Assembly: GCA_021813405.1 (NCBI GenBank)
Contig: JAKAKS010000028.1
Coordinates: 1 to 50,183, forward strand
Direction: 5' to 3'
DNA: 50,183 bases
From: Nitrospirota bacterium
GTDB taxonomy: Bacteria > Nitrospirota > Thermodesulfovibrionia > Thermodesulfovibrionales > JdFR-88
The notes below the pieces were generated by a model. The model was not told the origin of the DNA and did not search any database. It saw only the letters and a program-made list of their open reading frames with translations. The first letter of the stretch is position 1. Each line of letters starts with the position of its first letter. A program made the translations under genes and the position numbers. This document shows positions 38,285-49,521 of this stretch, piece by piece.

Positions 38285-38887
38285 ATGAAAAAAAAGGAAA
38301 TCTATGCGGCCTTGTTTTTTACCATCATCCTCTCCGGGCTGTTTGCCGCCGGATTGGCCATGGCCGCGCAAATGCAGGACAACTCCGGCTACGGCTGCAT
38401 GAATACGCCTGAAGGCATGATGAATTGCGGCGTGTGCGGATGCACAAAGGTGCCAGGTGGAGCTGCGGGCTGCATGAATATGCCGGGCGGCATGGGCATG
38501 ATGGGAGCAGGCAGCATGGGCGGCATGATGGGAATGGGCGGCATGAAGATGATGGACAGGCGGATGGAAGTAATGTCCGCAATAGGCGTTGCCGCCGGCC
38601 CGGCGATTTCACCATTTGGCTCAACGATGGCAAAGGATATAATGCAGGACCCGGAGATAAAACAATTTCTGGACAGCACTAAAAAACTGAGGCTGGAGCT
38701 TGTTCAAAAGAGGTTCAGTTATTACGAGGCCCTTAGAAACCCCGCCACCAAGCCGGAGCAGATAATAACCATGCGGAAGGAGCTAAGACGTCTCCAGAAA
38801 GAGATATGGGACAAATCCCCGTTCAAGGCTGGCGGCTTGTGCGGCCCCCGAGAGGCCGGCTGGGACACCGGAGATGATTCTCGATAG
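38285..38887 (+). CDS. Met/Gly-rich periplasmic protein, CpxP/ZraP-like
   Basis: 200 residues with a signal peptide (LFFTIILSGLFAAGLAMA). Residues about 38-90 are extremely rich in Met and Gly (GGMGMMGAGSMGGMMGMGG), with Cys pairs (NCGVCGC) typical of copper or soft-metal binding. The helical end (LELVQKRFSYYEALRNP; MRKELRRLQKEIWDKSPF) resembles the Spy/CpxP/ZraP periplasmic chaperone group. The proposed role is metal-stress protection or chaperoning; the metal is not known. AGGAGG precedes the ATG, and TATAAT at 38226-38231 is a good -10 box with a weak -35. The upstream four-heptad operator may control it. Confidence 0.8.
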   Translation: MKKKEIYAALFFTIILSGLFAAGLAMAAQMQDNSGYGCMNTPEGMMNCGVCGCTKVPGGAAGCMNMPGGMGMMGAGSMGGMMGMGGMKMMDRRMEVMSAIGVAAGPAISPFGSTMAKDIMQDPEIKQFLDSTKKLRLELVQKRFSYYEALRNPATKPEQIITMRKELRRLQKEIWDKSPFKAGGLCGPREAGWDTGDDSR

Positions 38888-41446: not shown

Positions 41447-42457
41447 TCATTTATGGGCCTTTCGCCAGGCTGTCAGTTTTTCCCGAAGCCTTATAAGCAT
41501 GGTCAACAGGAAAGGGAATGCCTTCAGGTTGATAACAACCCGGCTTGTTAATGTGGCGTATCTTTTGTATTTGGGGTTCACTTCCACCATTTTCCGGAAC
41601 TTCGCAACATCCCCCCGCAATAAGTAATGCAATCCCCGTTTGCATTTCCAGCTGATTTCGGAGCGCTTGATAATCCCCGGCTTCACACCAAGTTCCTCCG
41701 CACGACGGTACGCGTCAAAATACGCCTGGTCAATTATGTGGGCCTGCGGCCAAAGCGGGTCCGAGGCGGTCATCGGGCTCTTCCGCCAAATTCCCAGCGT
41801 TTCGTTTATGTATCCAATATCGCCCTTGGACGCCTGCTCAAGATGGTAGAAGAAATCTACCGTGCGCCTGTCCCTATAACGGCTGATTATCGCGCTGCGG
41901 CGGTACATCTTGCTGCAATGGGAAAAATAGCAACCTTTCATGCAAAGATAGTCAATGCCGGCCTTTTCAGGGACTGTGAAATTCACAAAAGATTCCGAGA
42001 TCACCTTCCCTGTGCCACCCTCGATCTTTCTGACGTTATGGGCAACTATGGTGCAATCCGTGTTTCTGTCCAGAAACTCCGCCTGCTTTTGCAGCTTCCC
42101 GGGCAGCATCATGTCATCGCCGTCAAGATAGGCTATATACTTGCCCTTTGCCCTTCTCATCACATCAAGGTAGTTTTGCGTTCCATTTATGTTTTTTTCA
42201 CGTAAAACAGGGATTATCAGGTGCGGATAGCGGTTTGCATAATCGCGCAATATCTGCTGTGTAACTCCGTCAGTAGATGCGTCGTCCCCCACTATAATTT
42301 CAAACGGGAAATTTGTTTCCTGTGTAACTATGGATTCCAGGCATTCGGCAAGCCATTGCCCGTGATTAAAGGTCAGCACAGTAACGCTTACCTTGGGCGT
42401 AAGCAGCCCAGGCAGCACAGATACAATTTCAGTTGATTCTATGATATCCAAGCCCAT
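41447..42457 (-). CDS. Family 2 glycosyltransferase, copy A
   Basis: 336 residues with a GT-A fold: VSVTVLTFNHGQWLAECLES, the first acidic site VGDDASTDG, and the DXD-type motif YLDGDDMMLPG that binds the metal-nucleotide sugar. The first 190 residues are nearly identical at DNA level to the gene at 43760-44824, while the C-terminal third differs. The protein is soluble, with no membrane segment. It likely adds one sugar in the polysaccharide repeat. The unshared end (EISWKCKRGLHYLLRGDVAK) may set acceptor specificity. Confidence 0.88.
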   Translation of the reverse strand: MGLDIIESTEIVSVLPGLLTPKVSVTVLTFNHGQWLAECLESIVTQETNFPFEIIVGDDASTDGVTQQILRDYANRYPHLIIPVLREKNINGTQNYLDVMRRAKGKYIAYLDGDDMMLPGKLQKQAEFLDRNTDCTIVAHNVRKIEGGTGKVISESFVNFTVPEKAGIDYLCMKGCYFSHCSKMYRRSAIISRYRDRRTVDFFYHLEQASKGDIGYINETLGIWRKSPMTASDPLWPQAHIIDQAYFDAYRRAEELGVKPGIIKRSEISWKCKRGLHYLLRGDVAKFRKMVEVNPKYKRYATLTSRVVINLKAFPFLLTMLIRLREKLTAWRKAHK

Positions 42458-42718: not shown

Positions 42719-43702
42719 TTACCTCTTTTTTTTATAAAGACGGCAGGAGGCGCAGATGGTTGGGACCGCTGGTCCTCCATATTTCCTGGCGCCAAAAAGG
42801 CTCCTCGAGTACCGATATTTGTCATTGTGCCAGATTGACTGAAAGGACTCTTCCGACATGTCCCCGAACGCAAAACTTTCATCCTTTACCAGGCAGCACG
42901 GGTAGACCTTGCCCGACGGGGAAACGGCTGGCCTGCGCCAAAGATAAGTGCAATGAGTGCTCAGGGTCCGGTCTTTCCTGTATCTCTTGTCAATAAACTG
43001 CTTACCAGCCGGAAGCCAGAAGGCTTTCCTTGCCTCCAGGTCCTCCGGCTCCTCATGAGGATTAAGGTCTCCAACACCCATAGTTGAAGTTGTAAAATCC
43101 ATCCCTAGCATCTTACTCATAGCCCTTGCTTTTTCTATTTCGTGCTCATTATGCCGGTGGACTATGAACTTCCATGTAAGTGCGGGAGTCTTGCTGCCAA
43201 GGGCTTTTTTGGCTTCATTAATCGCCCGTATATTACCAAGGGCAAGCTCCAGGTCCCCACCTATTCTGTAAACCTGATAAGAGGCCTGTGTCGCGCCGTC
43301 CAGGGATGCGCAGAGCTCATCAAGGCCCGCTTCAACTATACCGCGCCAAAAAGCCTCATCTTTCCTTATATTCAGGTTGGAATGGATCACTGTTTTTATC
43401 CGCCTCTGCTTGGCCATCCTGATCATTTCAATAATCCGGGGATTAAGAAAGGGCTCTCCCCAGTTATAAAGGTGGACTTCGGCAAGCAACGGCATGTCAT
43501 CGAGCACCTTCCTGAACAGCTCCAGGGGCATAACCGACTGTTTGTATTTATTTGTCCCTGAGCCGGTCGGGCAGATAGGGCATTTAAGGACGCAAAAATC
43601 AACCGGGTCCACATGGACGACACTGGGCATGGACGGCACCGATGAGAGGCCGTATAATCTCATTCTAATAAGGTCAAGCGCCGCGGCAATTCGATTTTTC
43701 AT
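42719..43702 (-). CDS. Radical SAM/SPASM-domain protein
   Basis: 327 residues. The SAM cluster motif is CVLKCPIC (about residues 37-44), a TIM-barrel-like region follows (EVHLYNWGEPFLNP), and the C-terminal SPASM region has auxiliary-cluster cysteines in STHCTYLW, SGKVYPCCLVKDE and CASCRLY. SPASM proteins in such loci modify peptides or sugars, or act as glycan-related dehydrogenases; the substrate here is unknown. It sits between two copies of the same GT2 gene, so it was either inserted after the duplication or carried along with it. Confidence 0.88.
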   Translation of the reverse strand: MKNRIAAALDLIRMRLYGLSSVPSMPSVVHVDPVDFCVLKCPICPTGSGTNKYKQSVMPLELFRKVLDDMPLLAEVHLYNWGEPFLNPRIIEMIRMAKQRRIKTVIHSNLNIRKDEAFWRGIVEAGLDELCASLDGATQASYQVYRIGGDLELALGNIRAINEAKKALGSKTPALTWKFIVHRHNEHEIEKARAMSKMLGMDFTTSTMGVGDLNPHEEPEDLEARKAFWLPAGKQFIDKRYRKDRTLSTHCTYLWRRPAVSPSGKVYPCCLVKDESFAFGDMSEESFQSIWHNDKYRYSRSLFGARKYGGPAVPTICASCRLYKKKR

Positions 43703-43759: not shown

Positions 43760-44824
43760 TTAATCGCCGTCCGGGCCGGGATTGGGCCGGGTGGTTTTCA
43801 TTTTACGGAGGCTATTCCGTACACTGGCCTTCAATTCCGGATATGCCATGACAAGTATGTCCCTCACACTTAAAATTGCCTTAGCCACGAAGGGGAATGC
43901 TCTTAACCGGATGACAACCTTGTTTCTGAAAGATGCATACCGTTTATTAACTGAAATAACCCCGATCATTTGCCTGAAAGTTTCAACATCTCCGCAACGC
44001 AAGAATTGCAGAGCCCTGTCGCATTTCCAGTTGACCTCAAGATGCTTGATTATCTCCGGATCAACACCCAGTTCCTCGGCGCGTCTGTATGCATCTTCAT
44101 TGGCCTGTTCAAGGATTCTGCCGAACGCCCCCCTGGGGTCCGATGCCGTCAGAGGGCTGCGCCGGTATACCCCAAGTGTTTCATTTATATATCCGATATT
44201 GCCTTTGGACGCCTGCTCGATATGATAGAAGAGGTCGATGGTGCGCCTCTCTCTGTAACGGCTGATTATCGCGCTGCGGCGGTACATCTTGCTGCAATGG
44301 GCAAAATAGGAACCTTTTTGGCACAGGTAATTGATATCGGCCTTTTCAGGGACTGTGAAATTCACAAAAGATTCCGAGATCACCTTCCCTGTGCCGCCCT
44401 GGATCTTCCTTACGTTGTGCGCAACTATGGTGCAATCCGTGTTTCTGTCCAGAAAGTCCGCCTGCTTTTGCAGCTTGCCTGGCAGCATCATGTCATCCCC
44501 ATCTATAAAGGCGATATACTCGCCCCGCGCCCTTCTCATCACATCAAGGTAGTTTTGCGTTCCGTTTATATTTTTTTCACGTAAAACAGGGATTATAAGG
44601 TGCGGATAGCGGTTTGAGTAATCGCGCAATATCTGCGGAGTGACTCCGTCAGTAGATGCGTCATCCCCAACTATAATTTCAAAAGGGAAATTTGTTTCCT
44701 GTGTAACTATGGATTCCAGGCATTCGGCAAGCCATTGCCCGTGATTAAAGGTCAGCACAGTAACGCTTACCTTGGGCGCTGGACTGCTGGCGCATTTCAG
44801 ATCTGCAATCTCGTTTTCTTTCAT
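43760..44824 (-). CDS. Family 2 glycosyltransferase, copy B
   Basis: 354 residues with the same N-terminal catalytic region as copy A: VSVTVLTFNHGQWLAECLES, VGDDASTDG and a DXD-type FIDGDDMMLPG. About 500 nt (44260-44771) are almost unchanged between the copies. The C-terminal third is divergent and extended (ends RKMKTTRPNPGPDGD). The ATG overlaps the flippase stop (ATGA). The protein is soluble and should transfer a sugar in polysaccharide assembly; different tails suggest different acceptors. Confidence 0.88.
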   Translation of the reverse strand: MKENEIADLKCASSPAPKVSVTVLTFNHGQWLAECLESIVTQETNFPFEIIVGDDASTDGVTPQILRDYSNRYPHLIIPVLREKNINGTQNYLDVMRRARGEYIAFIDGDDMMLPGKLQKQADFLDRNTDCTIVAHNVRKIQGGTGKVISESFVNFTVPEKADINYLCQKGSYFAHCSKMYRRSAIISRYRERRTIDLFYHIEQASKGNIGYINETLGVYRRSPLTASDPRGAFGRILEQANEDAYRRAEELGVDPEIIKHLEVNWKCDRALQFLRCGDVETFRQMIGVISVNKRYASFRNKVVIRLRAFPFVAKAILSVRDILVMAYPELKASVRNSLRKMKTTRPNPGPDGD

Positions 44825-46395: not shown

Positions 46396-47133
46396 TCACC
46401 TGGCGGCCTTTATTTCAAGGCAGTTGCGTACAGCGTGGGCTACTGCGGCTGGGGAATTCCACATAAGCACGTCTAGAATGGACAGGTTGGGCTCATATTG
46501 ATACGACGCTGTATTGTAAATAAATTCCTTTGGCTGCGCAAAATGCAACGCTACGCCGAGGCGCGCAAATTCAGCAGGGTCAAATAAGTCCTGTCCGCTG
46601 GCCGGATTCACGTAAACGGCGGCCCCCAATTGATGGCATATCTCCAGCGCCCACTGGCCGGGGCCCATTTTGTCAGGAAGCGGCAGCTTCAAATCGGAAC
46701 AAATCCTGTAATTAAACGGTATCTCCAGATACCGGCATACGGCGGCAAGCCCCTTTACGTCCAGATAGACAAGCGAATCGTCTGTAGATGAGCCAAATAC
46801 CTCTTCCACCAGGGCGATTACCGCATTGAAATATGGGGCCTTCTTTTTATAATGGCCCAGCTTGCCGGTAATATTTGCTTTTGCCTCAGCGATATTCAAT
46901 ATCCTTGCCTCATGGGTTTTGATCGACTGGGACGAGTTTACCAGGGGCACCGTTATGTACTGCCATCCCGCCTTTGGATGGAGTATGCGGTTGCGGTTCA
47001 TCCAGGTTTTTGGCGTGTACTGCGTAATATCGAATACAATCCATTCATCTACTGCCGCAATCAGGGAGAAATGCCCCAGATAAGGAAAGAAATAGGGCTG
47101 CATTATGCCCATCGATAATTTTTTATTTTGCAT
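46396..47133 (-). CDS. WbqC-like family protein
   Basis: 245 residues of the WbqC family, found in O-antigen and other polysaccharide loci and often near aminosugar genes: GIMQPYFFPYLGHFSLIAAV, NRNRILHPKAGWQYITVPL, and a late HFAQPKEFIYNT. The family is thought to act in making or modifying deoxy-aminosugars but is not well defined. The ATG at 47133 gives MQNKKLSMGIMQPY and overlaps the preceding DegT-type gene by 11 nt; a start at 47157 would add eight residues. Confidence 0.85.
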   Translation of the reverse strand: MQNKKLSMGIMQPYFFPYLGHFSLIAAVDEWIVFDITQYTPKTWMNRNRILHPKAGWQYITVPLVNSSQSIKTHEARILNIAEAKANITGKLGHYKKKAPYFNAVIALVEEVFGSSTDDSLVYLDVKGLAAVCRYLEIPFNYRICSDLKLPLPDKMGPGQWALEICHQLGAAVYVNPASGQDLFDPAEFARLGVALHFAQPKEFIYNTASYQYEPNLSILDVLMWNSPAAVAHAVRNCLEIKAAR

Positions 47134-48313
47134 GCCTGGCCAAGATTTCTCCGGCATTCTGATGCGCCATAAGTAGGATGCCGCAAATCCGCTCTACATC
47201 TGGTGCTGAAACAAGCGCGCCTATTGGGAACTGGACGCTTCTGGCGCAGAGCCTGTCAGTATTAGGCAAGGTTTCACCATATTGCGGCAGCGCATTGACG
47301 TATGGGATGCTGCGATGCAGGCCCGGATAGAACAGCCTTTTTGCCAATATGTTTTCCGCTCTTAGCAGCTTTATAAGCAAATCCCTGCCCATCCCGAATT
47401 CAGCCTCGTCCACCACGCATACAAGATGCTGGTAATTCGAAAGGCTGACCCCGCCTGGCCTCACCAGGCGTAATCCGGGAATTTCTACCAGAAATTTTTC
47501 ATACAGATGAAATAGTTTTTCGTTGTTTGCCCTGTTAGCCTGAAAATCCTCAAGCCCCATAAGCGCGGCAGCCGCCTGCGCCTCAGACATCCTTGCGTTT
47601 GCCACCCTTAAAATATTGACGGGTATATCAGGCCCGTAGCTGGGCCTGATGCTCCGTAGACGGGCCGCAAGTTCATCGTCGCTGGTGCAGATGCATCCGC
47701 CTTCGGCGGCGTTAATGATATTATCCGAATGGAAGGAAAAGACCTCCGCCCTTCCAAAATTACCAATTTTAACACCGCCAGCCTCGCAGCCAAACGCATG
47801 TGCGGAATCAAAATACACCTGGATGCCATTTGCCTCTGCCACAGCGGCAAGCGCGCCTTGATCGCAAGCCCCTCCCAACAGATTAACGCCCATTATCGCG
47901 CTTACGCCATTGCCAATCAGCGCTTTCACTCGGTCCGGATCTATATGATGGGTGATAGGATCAACGTCACAAAATACCGGTTCCAGCCCTGCCCATGTTA
48001 GCGACTGGGCAGAAGCGGCGAAGGTAAACGCCGGCATGATAACTTTGCCTGAAAGCCCCATGGCGTCGGCCAGCATCATCAGGCCAAGGGTTGCATTATG
48101 CACGCAAATGACGTGATTAACCACGAAAAAATCACGGAGTTTTTCATCGAGCTGCTGATGAAGAGGGCCGTTATTGTTATAATACTGGCGGTCAAAAATC
48201 CCGCGCATCGCCGCTTCATAGCGATCCCAGGTCGGGAAATAAAGCTGCCCAAAAGGAACCGGCTGCTCAAAGGCAGGTTTAGCGCCAAAAAGCGCAAAGC
48301 CGGTTATATTCAT
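47123..48313 (-). CDS. DegT/DnrJ-family protein lacking the catalytic lysine
   Basis: 396 residues with the PLP-dependent fold I of sugar aminotransferases (DegT/DnrJ/EryC1/StrS). The cofactor-side Asp is present (YFDSAHAFG, Asp169), and the PLP-phosphate region and C-terminal PxH-type segment are intact. At the lysine position, however, the usual SFHxTK motif reads SFHSDN, giving Asn198 (codon AAT) instead of the Lys that forms the aldimine. It therefore should not do normal transamination. Non-aminotransferase relatives such as the dehydratase ColD use another residue at this place. It is coupled by ATGA overlap to a Lys-containing paralogue, so a heterodimer or scaffold role is possible. 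Confidence 0.9.
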   Translation of the reverse strand: MNITGFALFGAKPAFEQPVPFGQLYFPTWDRYEAAMRGIFDRQYYNNNGPLHQQLDEKLRDFFVVNHVICVHNATLGLMMLADAMGLSGKVIMPAFTFAASAQSLTWAGLEPVFCDVDPITHHIDPDRVKALIGNGVSAIMGVNLLGGACDQGALAAVAEANGIQVYFDSAHAFGCEAGGVKIGNFGRAEVFSFHSDNIINAAEGGCICTSDDELAARLRSIRPSYGPDIPVNILRVANARMSEAQAAAALMGLEDFQANRANNEKLFHLYEKFLVEIPGLRLVRPGGVSLSNYQHLVCVVDEAEFGMGRDLLIKLLRAENILAKRLFYPGLHRSIPYVNALPQYGETLPNTDRLCARSVQFPIGALVSAPDVERICGILLMAHQNAGEILARHAK

Positions 48314-49521
48314 TTAATTTCGCACACTGTATGCAACCGCTTGCTTATCCGCGCCGCGTTTTCTGAAATAAACGCAAGCATCTCCACAATTTTTTCTATA
48401 TCCACGGGACTTACAAGGTGGCCACAAGGAAGGTTCACGTACCTTTCGGAAAGCCTGTCCGTTACCGGCAGGTCCGCGGGCACATAGCCAAACCCCATGG
48501 GTTTTTTGTGCAACGGGGGCGAGTAATAAACGCGGGCAAGGATTTTTTCAGCATTCAGGACACTTATCGTGTCTATGCGTGACAAGGGCCACTCATCAAG
48601 GAGTTCCACTACGATATTTTTATATCCTACCCGGTAGCGCTCATCAAACTCCACCAGCCTTATTCCACCAATGCCGTCAAGCAGCTGCTTGTAAGCATAA
48701 TAGCGCTCACGGTTGCGCGCAACCTGCTCTTCTACCCCGTCAAGGCTGGCCAGGGCAAGGGCCGCGTGCATATCATTGAGCTTGGCGTTGAGGCCTTCAG
48801 GCGTAACAATATTTTCCTCCCCGGAAAAACCAAATTCCCTGGCTTGCGCCAGTTGCGTTGCCAGGGCCGGATCATTGGTGGTGACATAACCGCCCCCAAA
48901 ACCGTTGAGCAGTTTGCATGCATGCATTGAAAAAGCCTCTGCAAGGCCAAACCCACCCACCCTTCCCTCGGGGATGGATTCATATACCGATTCCACCGAA
49001 TCGAAAACAAGCGGAATATTTCTCTGTTTTGCAAGCGTCTCAAGCCCTTTGATATCACAGCAGTTCACAATAGGATGGGCGCCCAGTACCAATGCCGTGT
49101 TTTCGTTTATGCAGGGTTCCACGGTGGCGGCGCTCATGGCCAGCGTTTGCGGTTCCACTTCACAAAAATGCGGCTTCAGATTTAACCAGGCAGCGATGTC
49201 GGCCATGCGCCGGTAAGTCAGTGACGGCATGATTATTTCCGTTTTGCCTTCAATAGCAACGGCGGAGATTGCGCTTGCTATTGCCCAGAAGCCACTGCAA
49301 AACGTAATGCAGAATTGCGTTTTATGAAATTCCGCCAGCCGCTTTTCAAGCAGTTCCACGCACGGGCCATTGGAATACCGACGCTGGTTAAAAAAAAGTT
49401 TTGAGTAGCCCATGAATTTTTCGAAATCTGGCTGCAACAGGTTCGAAGTGGATTTGGGTACGGCAAACAGGCACTCTCCGCCAAAAATCGCCAGATCCTC
49501 AATGCTCTTTTTTTTAATCAC
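48310..49521 (-). CDS. DegT/DnrJ-family sugar aminotransferase
   Basis: 403 residues of the same family as the neighbour, with the catalytic Lys203 in SMHACKLLNGFGGG and Asp174 in VFDSVESVYE. It should move an amino group onto a keto-sugar nucleotide during polysaccharide building. The start at 49521 is a GTG with AGGATTT upstream. It overlaps the Lys-less paralogue by 4 nt. The two are only moderately similar, so they are not a recent duplication. Confidence 0.88.
   Translation of the reverse strand: MIKKKSIEDLAIFGGECLFAVPKSTSNLLQPDFEKFMGYSKLFFNQRRYSNGPCVELLEKRLAEFHKTQFCITFCSGFWAIASAISAVAIEGKTEIIMPSLTYRRMADIAAWLNLKPHFCEVEPQTLAMSAATVEPCINENTALVLGAHPIVNCCDIKGLETLAKQRNIPLVFDSVESVYESIPEGRVGGFGLAEAFSMHACKLLNGFGGGYVTTNDPALATQLAQAREFGFSGEENIVTPEGLNAKLNDMHAALALASLDGVEEQVARNRERYYAYKQLLDGIGGIRLVEFDERYRVGYKNIVVELLDEWPLSRIDTISVLNAEKILARVYYSPPLHKKPMGFGYVPADLPVTDRLSERYVNLPCGHLVSPVDIEKIVEMLAFISENAARISKRLHTVCEIK

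Follow-up and report, generated by a model that had tools for sequence, protein, structure and literature searches.

Members of the DegT family form dimers whose active sites lie between the subunits, the PLP-lysine coming from one subunit and the substrate-binding loops from the other. The dehydratases of the ColD/E1 type have a histidine at the place of the Schiff-base lysine and work without a lysine. The LCB1/LCB2 pair belongs to the alpha-oxoamine synthases, a family other than DegT. In this pair, serine palmitoyltransferase, LCB1 is reported to lack the lysine and other catalytic residues, LCB2 carries the lysine, and the heterodimer has been proposed to have one active site (PMC3794620). 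Among DegT enzymes, Phe229 of DesI and Lys215 and Tyr229 of Pcryo_0638 are described as contributed by the other subunit (PMC8040287), and Gly28, Ile30, Gln234 and Tyr249 of Spr1654 as reaching into the site of the neighbouring subunit (PMC5936713).

Two adjacent genes of the DegT family, encoding proteins A and B, are found in the window, i.e., the whole stretch of 50,183 bases that was analysed, which is the complete contig C50. The features of the locus are collected in Table 1. A starts with ATG and B with GTG, and the two proteins are about 30% identical. Both match Pfam PF01041 over their full length (242.5 bits for A and 229.5 bits for B, cut-off 19.8). The best solved structure for both, by sequence and by fold, is that of DesI (PDB 2po3), and the nearest NCBIfam model is likewise that of DesI. 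The predicted structures, both modelled as monomers, have pLDDT values of 93.6 (A) and 93.2 (B); the closest structure to A is 2po3 at TM 0.94, and B matches 2po3 at TM 0.91. A differs from DesI in the absence of the lysine. Moreover, the DesI equivalog model TIGR04427 (cut-off 650 bits) is not reached by A (352.4), B (254), or a third protein, C (539). 'DesI-like', as used here for all three, denotes similarity alone.

Table 1. Coordinates of the features at the A-B locus and on contig C40 of the same genome
Feature	Position	Strand	Basis or location
Protein A, DesI-like DegT fold, 396 aa, Asn198 at the place of the PLP-lysine	47123..48313	minus	ORF, Pfam, alignment, structure model
Protein B, Lys-bearing DegT paralogue, 403 aa, Lys203	48310..49521	minus	ORF, Pfam, alignment
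Codon for Asn198 of A, AAT	47720..47722	minus	coordinates by arithmetic from ORF start
B stop overlapping A start, 4 bases	48310..48313	minus	ORF coordinates
WbqC-like protein (PF08889), member of the conserved module; its start overlaps the 3' end of A	46396..47157	minus	Pfam and gene order
Class I methyltransferase (MT), truncated at the contig end	49542..50183	minus	profile match
Protein D	L037:18399-19442		contig C40, window's own genome; module continues there
Protein C	L037:17154-18380		contig C40, window's own genome; module continues there

The active-site motif is FSFHSDNIINAAEGG in A and FSMHACKLLNGFGGG in B. Asn198 of A aligns with the Schiff-base lysine of DesI (2po3) and of other DegT proteins, and the substitution is broader than one residue, the HATK of active relatives (SFHATK) being replaced by HSDN or HSEN in A. 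The preliminary description of this DNA had reported a DegT-family protein with Asn for the catalytic lysine in an otherwise intact fold, adjoining and overlapping a Lys-bearing paralogue. All of this is borne out by the PF01041 match, the alignment, the structure model, and the shared bases 48310-48313. The other cofactor residues (Thr75, Asp169, His172, Ser193, and Asn239) are intact in A of the window genome (G000) and of G001 (Nitrospirae bacterium DBS2-1.bin64, loci L036 and L044), the only other genome of the window's genus found in the searches.

A sequencing error, named at the outset as a possible refutation, is excluded, because G001 also carries AAT at this place. Its A protein is 92% identical to that of the window, the site reads SFHSENIINAAEGG, and the codons around AAT differ between the two; a separate Asn in a third genome, G226, also argues against an error. 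A DesI/A alignment was run against 84,980 species genomes; the best 80 of 589 matching stretches had lysine in 79 cases and Asn in one, which is G001 itself. Since lysine is present in 79 of these best 80 DesI-like loci, Asn in A is beyond chance. A nearby lysine taking over, the other objection raised, is likewise not borne out: in the alignment there is no Lys column common to the Lys-less A lineages yet absent from the others, and Lys325 of A is confined to G000 and G001.

Eighteen A orthologues were assembled; they are a non-random sample, in which the five genomes with Met come from one family, and L044 and G001, like L051 and G236, are one genome and counted once. The residue at the site is Lys in ten (L045-L051, L054, G789, and G1218), Asn in three (G000, G001, and G226), and Met in five (G956, G884, G1258, G1261, and G1257). 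B, in contrast to A, keeps its lysine in 17/17. It is encoded directly before A in all 17 loci in which it is visible, among the 18 A loci of several phyla; the contig of the remaining locus, L047, begins inside A. The nearest relatives in the best-80 scan form a separate clade, 43–62% identical to A and all with lysine, hosted by Gammaproteobacteria, Alphaproteobacteria (Ruegeria, Azospirillum), Thauera, Eremiobacterota, and Actinomycetes. In these a B orthologue lies directly upstream wherever the contig allows, WbqC mostly downstream, and MT nearby. The MT-B-A-WbqC module is the usual setting of the A clade across several phyla. The overlap of B and A is 4 bases in 11 loci (the window, G001, G956, G884, G1258, G1261, G1257, G789, L048, L049, and L051) and 8 bases in G1218, which fits, and does not prove, a stoichiometric pair.

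The gene order in G001 is the same as in the window genome, namely C - D - MT - B - A - WbqC - flippase - glycosyltransferases. In the window genome C and D stand at the end of contig C40, and, to judge from synteny with G001:C170, C40 and C50 probably adjoin, with the assembly break between D and the MT gene.

Whole-genome profile searches with B or A gave matches in 3/230 genomes of the window's class (adding G226), 5/250 in the search that added G789, G956, and G884 (the fifth match, G957, is of C type and not A), 2/247 in that adding G1218, and 6/32 in that adding G1257, G1258, and G1261. The search of the Ruegeria order returned 1/292, Ruegeria itself, and that of the window's phylum 2/395, both of the window genus. 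These rates are lower bounds, since the best few candidates per genome (4–8 in the larger searches) were scored. Several of the surveyed genomes are draft bins. No member of the A clade was found in the plasmids and phages searched (best A relative 39%), and the viral contigs searched gave a DesI-like protein at 41% at best and no B match. In Motilimonas eburnea (L045) two more distant DegT genes lie near the module (E 1e-60 and 1e-48). In another family of the window's order, the reading frame of a DegT homologue (L024, genome G092) runs through one in-frame TAA.

The number of losses of the lysine was estimated from trees of A with columns 196-198 (the lysine site) removed. Alignment A5 held 47 of the 80 scan loci and the window, and the main tree had 29 rows, consisting of the 18 A proteins and 11 of C type. 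In the main tree G226 A falls outside a supported group (97/92) in which Lys-bearing and Lys-less A are mixed, and the Lys-bearing L050 and L054 branch outside G226 (100/98). This topology, with which an earlier 20-row tree is in accord, requires three lysine changes. One ancestral loss common to all Lys-less A is ruled out by the AU test, in which placing all eight together is rejected (p 0.0002); placing the three Asn rows together is rejected as well (p 0.0003). A grouping of the window genus and the Met clade, by contrast, is compatible with the test (p 0.30), and the two are joined in the B tree (82/89) and in the concatenated tree (74/69). The concatenated trees comprise 15 of the 18 taxa (without L047, L050, and L054); for L051 they include a more distant WbqC, 35% identical and encoded upstream of MT, and L049 has no MT match there. 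By these trees the lysine of A was lost independently at least twice, perhaps three times, and there may be only two replicates of the loss, because the window-genus and Met-clade losses may be one event.

The Lys-less A genes have not the character of pseudogenes, considering that the reading frame is intact in all eight genomes and that dN/dS indicates purifying selection in both groups that could be compared. Between G000 and G001 the dN/dS of A is 0.27, which exceeds that of each of the ten other cluster genes (0.10–0.20) and differs from that of the ten pooled (Fisher p 0.034). This hints at some relaxation of A in these two genomes, but the value is far from neutral. In the Met clade (ten pairs, dS 0.25–1.07) dN/dS is 0.10–0.17 for A and 0.085–0.155 for B, while the identity to the window proteins is 51% for A and 62–63% for B. 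These values point to a burst of change in A on the Met-clade branch, followed by constraint about as strong as in B.

The loss of the lysine goes together with the presence of C. In a census of DesI-like proteins in the 18 whole genomes, at a threshold of our own (E ≤ 1e-90), exactly three (A, B, and C) are found in all eight Lys-less genomes. In contrast, the Lys-bearing genomes have two (A and B) in nine of ten cases and C in none of the ten; the exception, G232, has one, its contig starting inside A and cutting B. The Lys-bearing A orthologues (Motilimonas eburnea L045, Ruegeria atlantica L046, L051, G789, G1218, and others) occupy the same position after B, are 43–67% identical to A, and keep HATK, and, unlike Lys-less A, they come from genomes in which no DesI-like C is found at this threshold. 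C itself has HATK in 8/8 and is located within the cluster, and it is of two subfamilies, one in the window genus and the other in G226 and the Met clade. Counted by lineage, C is present in 3/3 Lys-less lineages versus 0/8 clusters with enough flank (Fisher p 0.006), or p 0.022 when the window genus and the Met clade are taken as one. This link could, however, reflect a common glycan and not a replacement of the A-site.

The residues that one subunit would lend to the other were located from other DegT enzymes by approximate alignment, by which the donated residues would map to the TNNGP loop and the FGF...NAK segment. The Asn of the TNNGP loop of B is present in 9/9 with a Lys-bearing A partner and in 0/8 with a Lys-less one, where it is deleted (G000 and G001) or replaced by Asp (the rest). 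Lys247 of B is present in 9/9 versus 2/8, being replaced by Ile in G226 and by Ser or Cys in the Met clade. The exceptions to this decay are B of G000 and G001, which keeps Lys247 and the Phe of FGF, and B of L045, in which the second Phe of FGF is Ile although its A has lysine. On the side of A, Asn47, Asn239, and Arg/Lys241 are kept in all eight Lys-less proteins, while Thr197, Lys198, and Tyr327 of its own site are lost in all Lys-less lineages; Met-clade A has further changes at Thr75 (to Met), Phe98, and Glu204, and Asp169 is Glu in 2/5.

Among 35 canonical positions of B, those changed in at least two lineages amount to 3/8 in the two segments and 1/27 elsewhere (Fisher p 0.03, a small exploratory test), and those changed in at least one lineage to 4/8 and 7/27, a difference that is not significant (p 0.23, also exploratory). 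The counterpart positions of A are changed in 0/3 versus 19/45 (p 0.27, again a small exploratory test). The residues of B that by homology would reach into the site of A decay with the lysine, and those of A that would serve the site of B stay. In the B site Lys203, Asp174, and Ser are kept, but most of the 17 B proteins depart from the canonical pattern at two positions: the phosphate Thr is replaced by Phe or some other residue, and Glu occupies the place of the O3' His/Gln. On account of these changes it is not certain that B is active, and its own chemistry may be unusual.

It is very probable that A, with its PLP-lysine gone, no longer works as an ordinary aminotransferase and yet has been retained. 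The explanation we favour is that A is the non-catalytic partner in an obligate DegT pair, a heterodimer of A and B in which C has replaced the A-site; we give the whole chain about an even chance. The loss of the lysine, the conserved pairing with B, the purifying selection on Lys-less A, and the joint occurrence with C are observed, whereas the A-B dimer, the takeover by C, and catalysis by B are deduced from them. The ancestral pair would have had lysine in both A and B and formed a heterodimer with two unlike sites, a DesI-like A-site and an unusual B-site. The sugar amination formerly done at the A-site would be taken over by C, which is encoded in the same cluster in the window lineage and in at least one other. 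The A-site, made redundant in this way, would then decay, the lysine turning into Asn or Met. A would persist as the non-catalytic half, its loops being needed to complete the B-site around Lys203. We know of no DegT enzyme with such a heterodimer arrangement, and a search of the literature by titles and abstract openings, with thin coverage of subscription journals, returned no DegT heteromer with a Lys-less subunit and no function of WbqC. The more general statement, that one of two reciprocal sites of a DegT heterodimer has repeatedly been lost beside a third paralogue, an enzyme thereby becoming its neighbour's obligate non-catalytic half, is put forward more tentatively, at somewhat below even chances.

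The intact fold of A and the purifying selection on it would also be expected if A were a homodimeric pseudoenzyme acting without B. As a chaperone, scaffold, or sensor, such a protein might bind a nucleotide sugar or another protein of the pathway (MT, WbqC, or C); the genes for WbqC and usually for MT lie beside that of A too. A homodimer of A alone, however, would not predict that residues of B change with the lysine of A, and the conserved Asn47 and Arg241 of A would then serve only a dead site, which makes this reading unlikely. Decay toward loss, the job of A having been taken by C, is consistent with the presence of C in every Lys-less genome and with the slightly relaxed selection in G000 and G001. 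It is very improbable, considering the intact frames and the low dN/dS maintained in the five Met genomes over pairwise dS values of up to about 1.

It is also conceivable that A still catalyses a reaction with PMP or PLP but no Schiff-base lysine, in a dehydratase-like or another chemistry. The ColD/E1/RfbH PMP-dependent 3-dehydratases have, like A, the DegT fold without this lysine, and ColD/E1 work without it; moreover, the cofactor residues of A are intact in G000 and G001. By the titles of their PDB entries (4oca, 3nys, and 3dr4), DegT mutants with Lys replaced by Ala, of ArnB, WbpE, and perosamine synthase, were crystallised with PLP or ligand, and by this analogy A may bind a cofactor or ligand. 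The 3-dehydratases, however, have His at the site, unlike the Asn (three) or Met (five) of the eight Lys-less A, none of which has His, and by profile score they are another subfamily, A reaching 69.1 bits with the RfbH model against a cut-off of 423. Identity of A with these enzymes is rejected on both counts. Lys-free catalysis of any kind is further opposed by the different replacements in different lineages, by the additional changes at Thr75, Phe98, Glu204, and partly Asp169 in the Met clade, and by the lack of a new lysine in common, and we consider it distinctly unlikely. Accordingly, the three functions that the preliminary description had left open fare differently: the dehydratase-like variant finds no support, a non-aminotransferase enzyme is weakened by the loss of further cofactor residues in the Met clade, and a partner role is best supported in the form of a non-catalytic partner of B, given the adjacency of the genes, the lysine of B that is never lost, the purifying selection on Lys-less A, and the asymmetric residue decay.

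A non-catalytic half of an A-B heterodimer would work most like LCB1 in serine palmitoyltransferase, and not like the ColD-type dehydratases. The likeness is that of a paralogous pair of fold-type-I PLP proteins with one subunit devoid of the lysine, A being encoded with the Lys-bearing B. The LCB1/LCB2 heterodimer is biochemically shown, whereas that of A and B is proposed here from sequences; and the loss of the lysine in A is, in contrast to LCB1, recent and recurrent in a clade that mostly keeps it. Annotation pipelines would name A an aminotransferase, although by the usual mechanism it almost certainly is not one. If the heterodimer is real, the sugar aminotransferases, which are treated as homodimers, include asymmetric pairs. 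The clade would then offer the stages of the passage from enzyme to non-catalytic subunit (lysine in both; Asn in A; Met in A with further decay), a natural before-and-after series showing how an LCB1-like pseudoenzyme subunit arises.

Protein D, of about 345 aa, is encoded in L037 (Table 1) and at L036:1382-2413, and is a conserved member of the module, 44–56% identical in G789, G1218, G956, and G884. The copy of the window genome has no match in Pfam (E ≤ 1) or NCBIfam, and the D profile has none in the PDB. Against the A family, however, this profile aligns nearly end to end (hhalign probability 60%, E 9e-5), and an invariant lysine lies in SPRKFAGLPDGG near the place of the PLP-lysine. We read D as a fourth, very divergent DegT-like protein. 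Farther along the window, two family 2 glycosyltransferase genes (41447-42457 and 43760-44824), 77% identical over 309 aa, represent a duplication, and they flank a radical SAM/SPASM protein gene (42719-43702). The dS of the copy at 41447-42457 is 0.46 between G000 and G001, which is above that of its neighbours. At the edge of the glycan cluster, 38285-38887 encodes a protein rich in Met, Gly, and Cys, with a signal-like N-terminus, that is conserved in G001.
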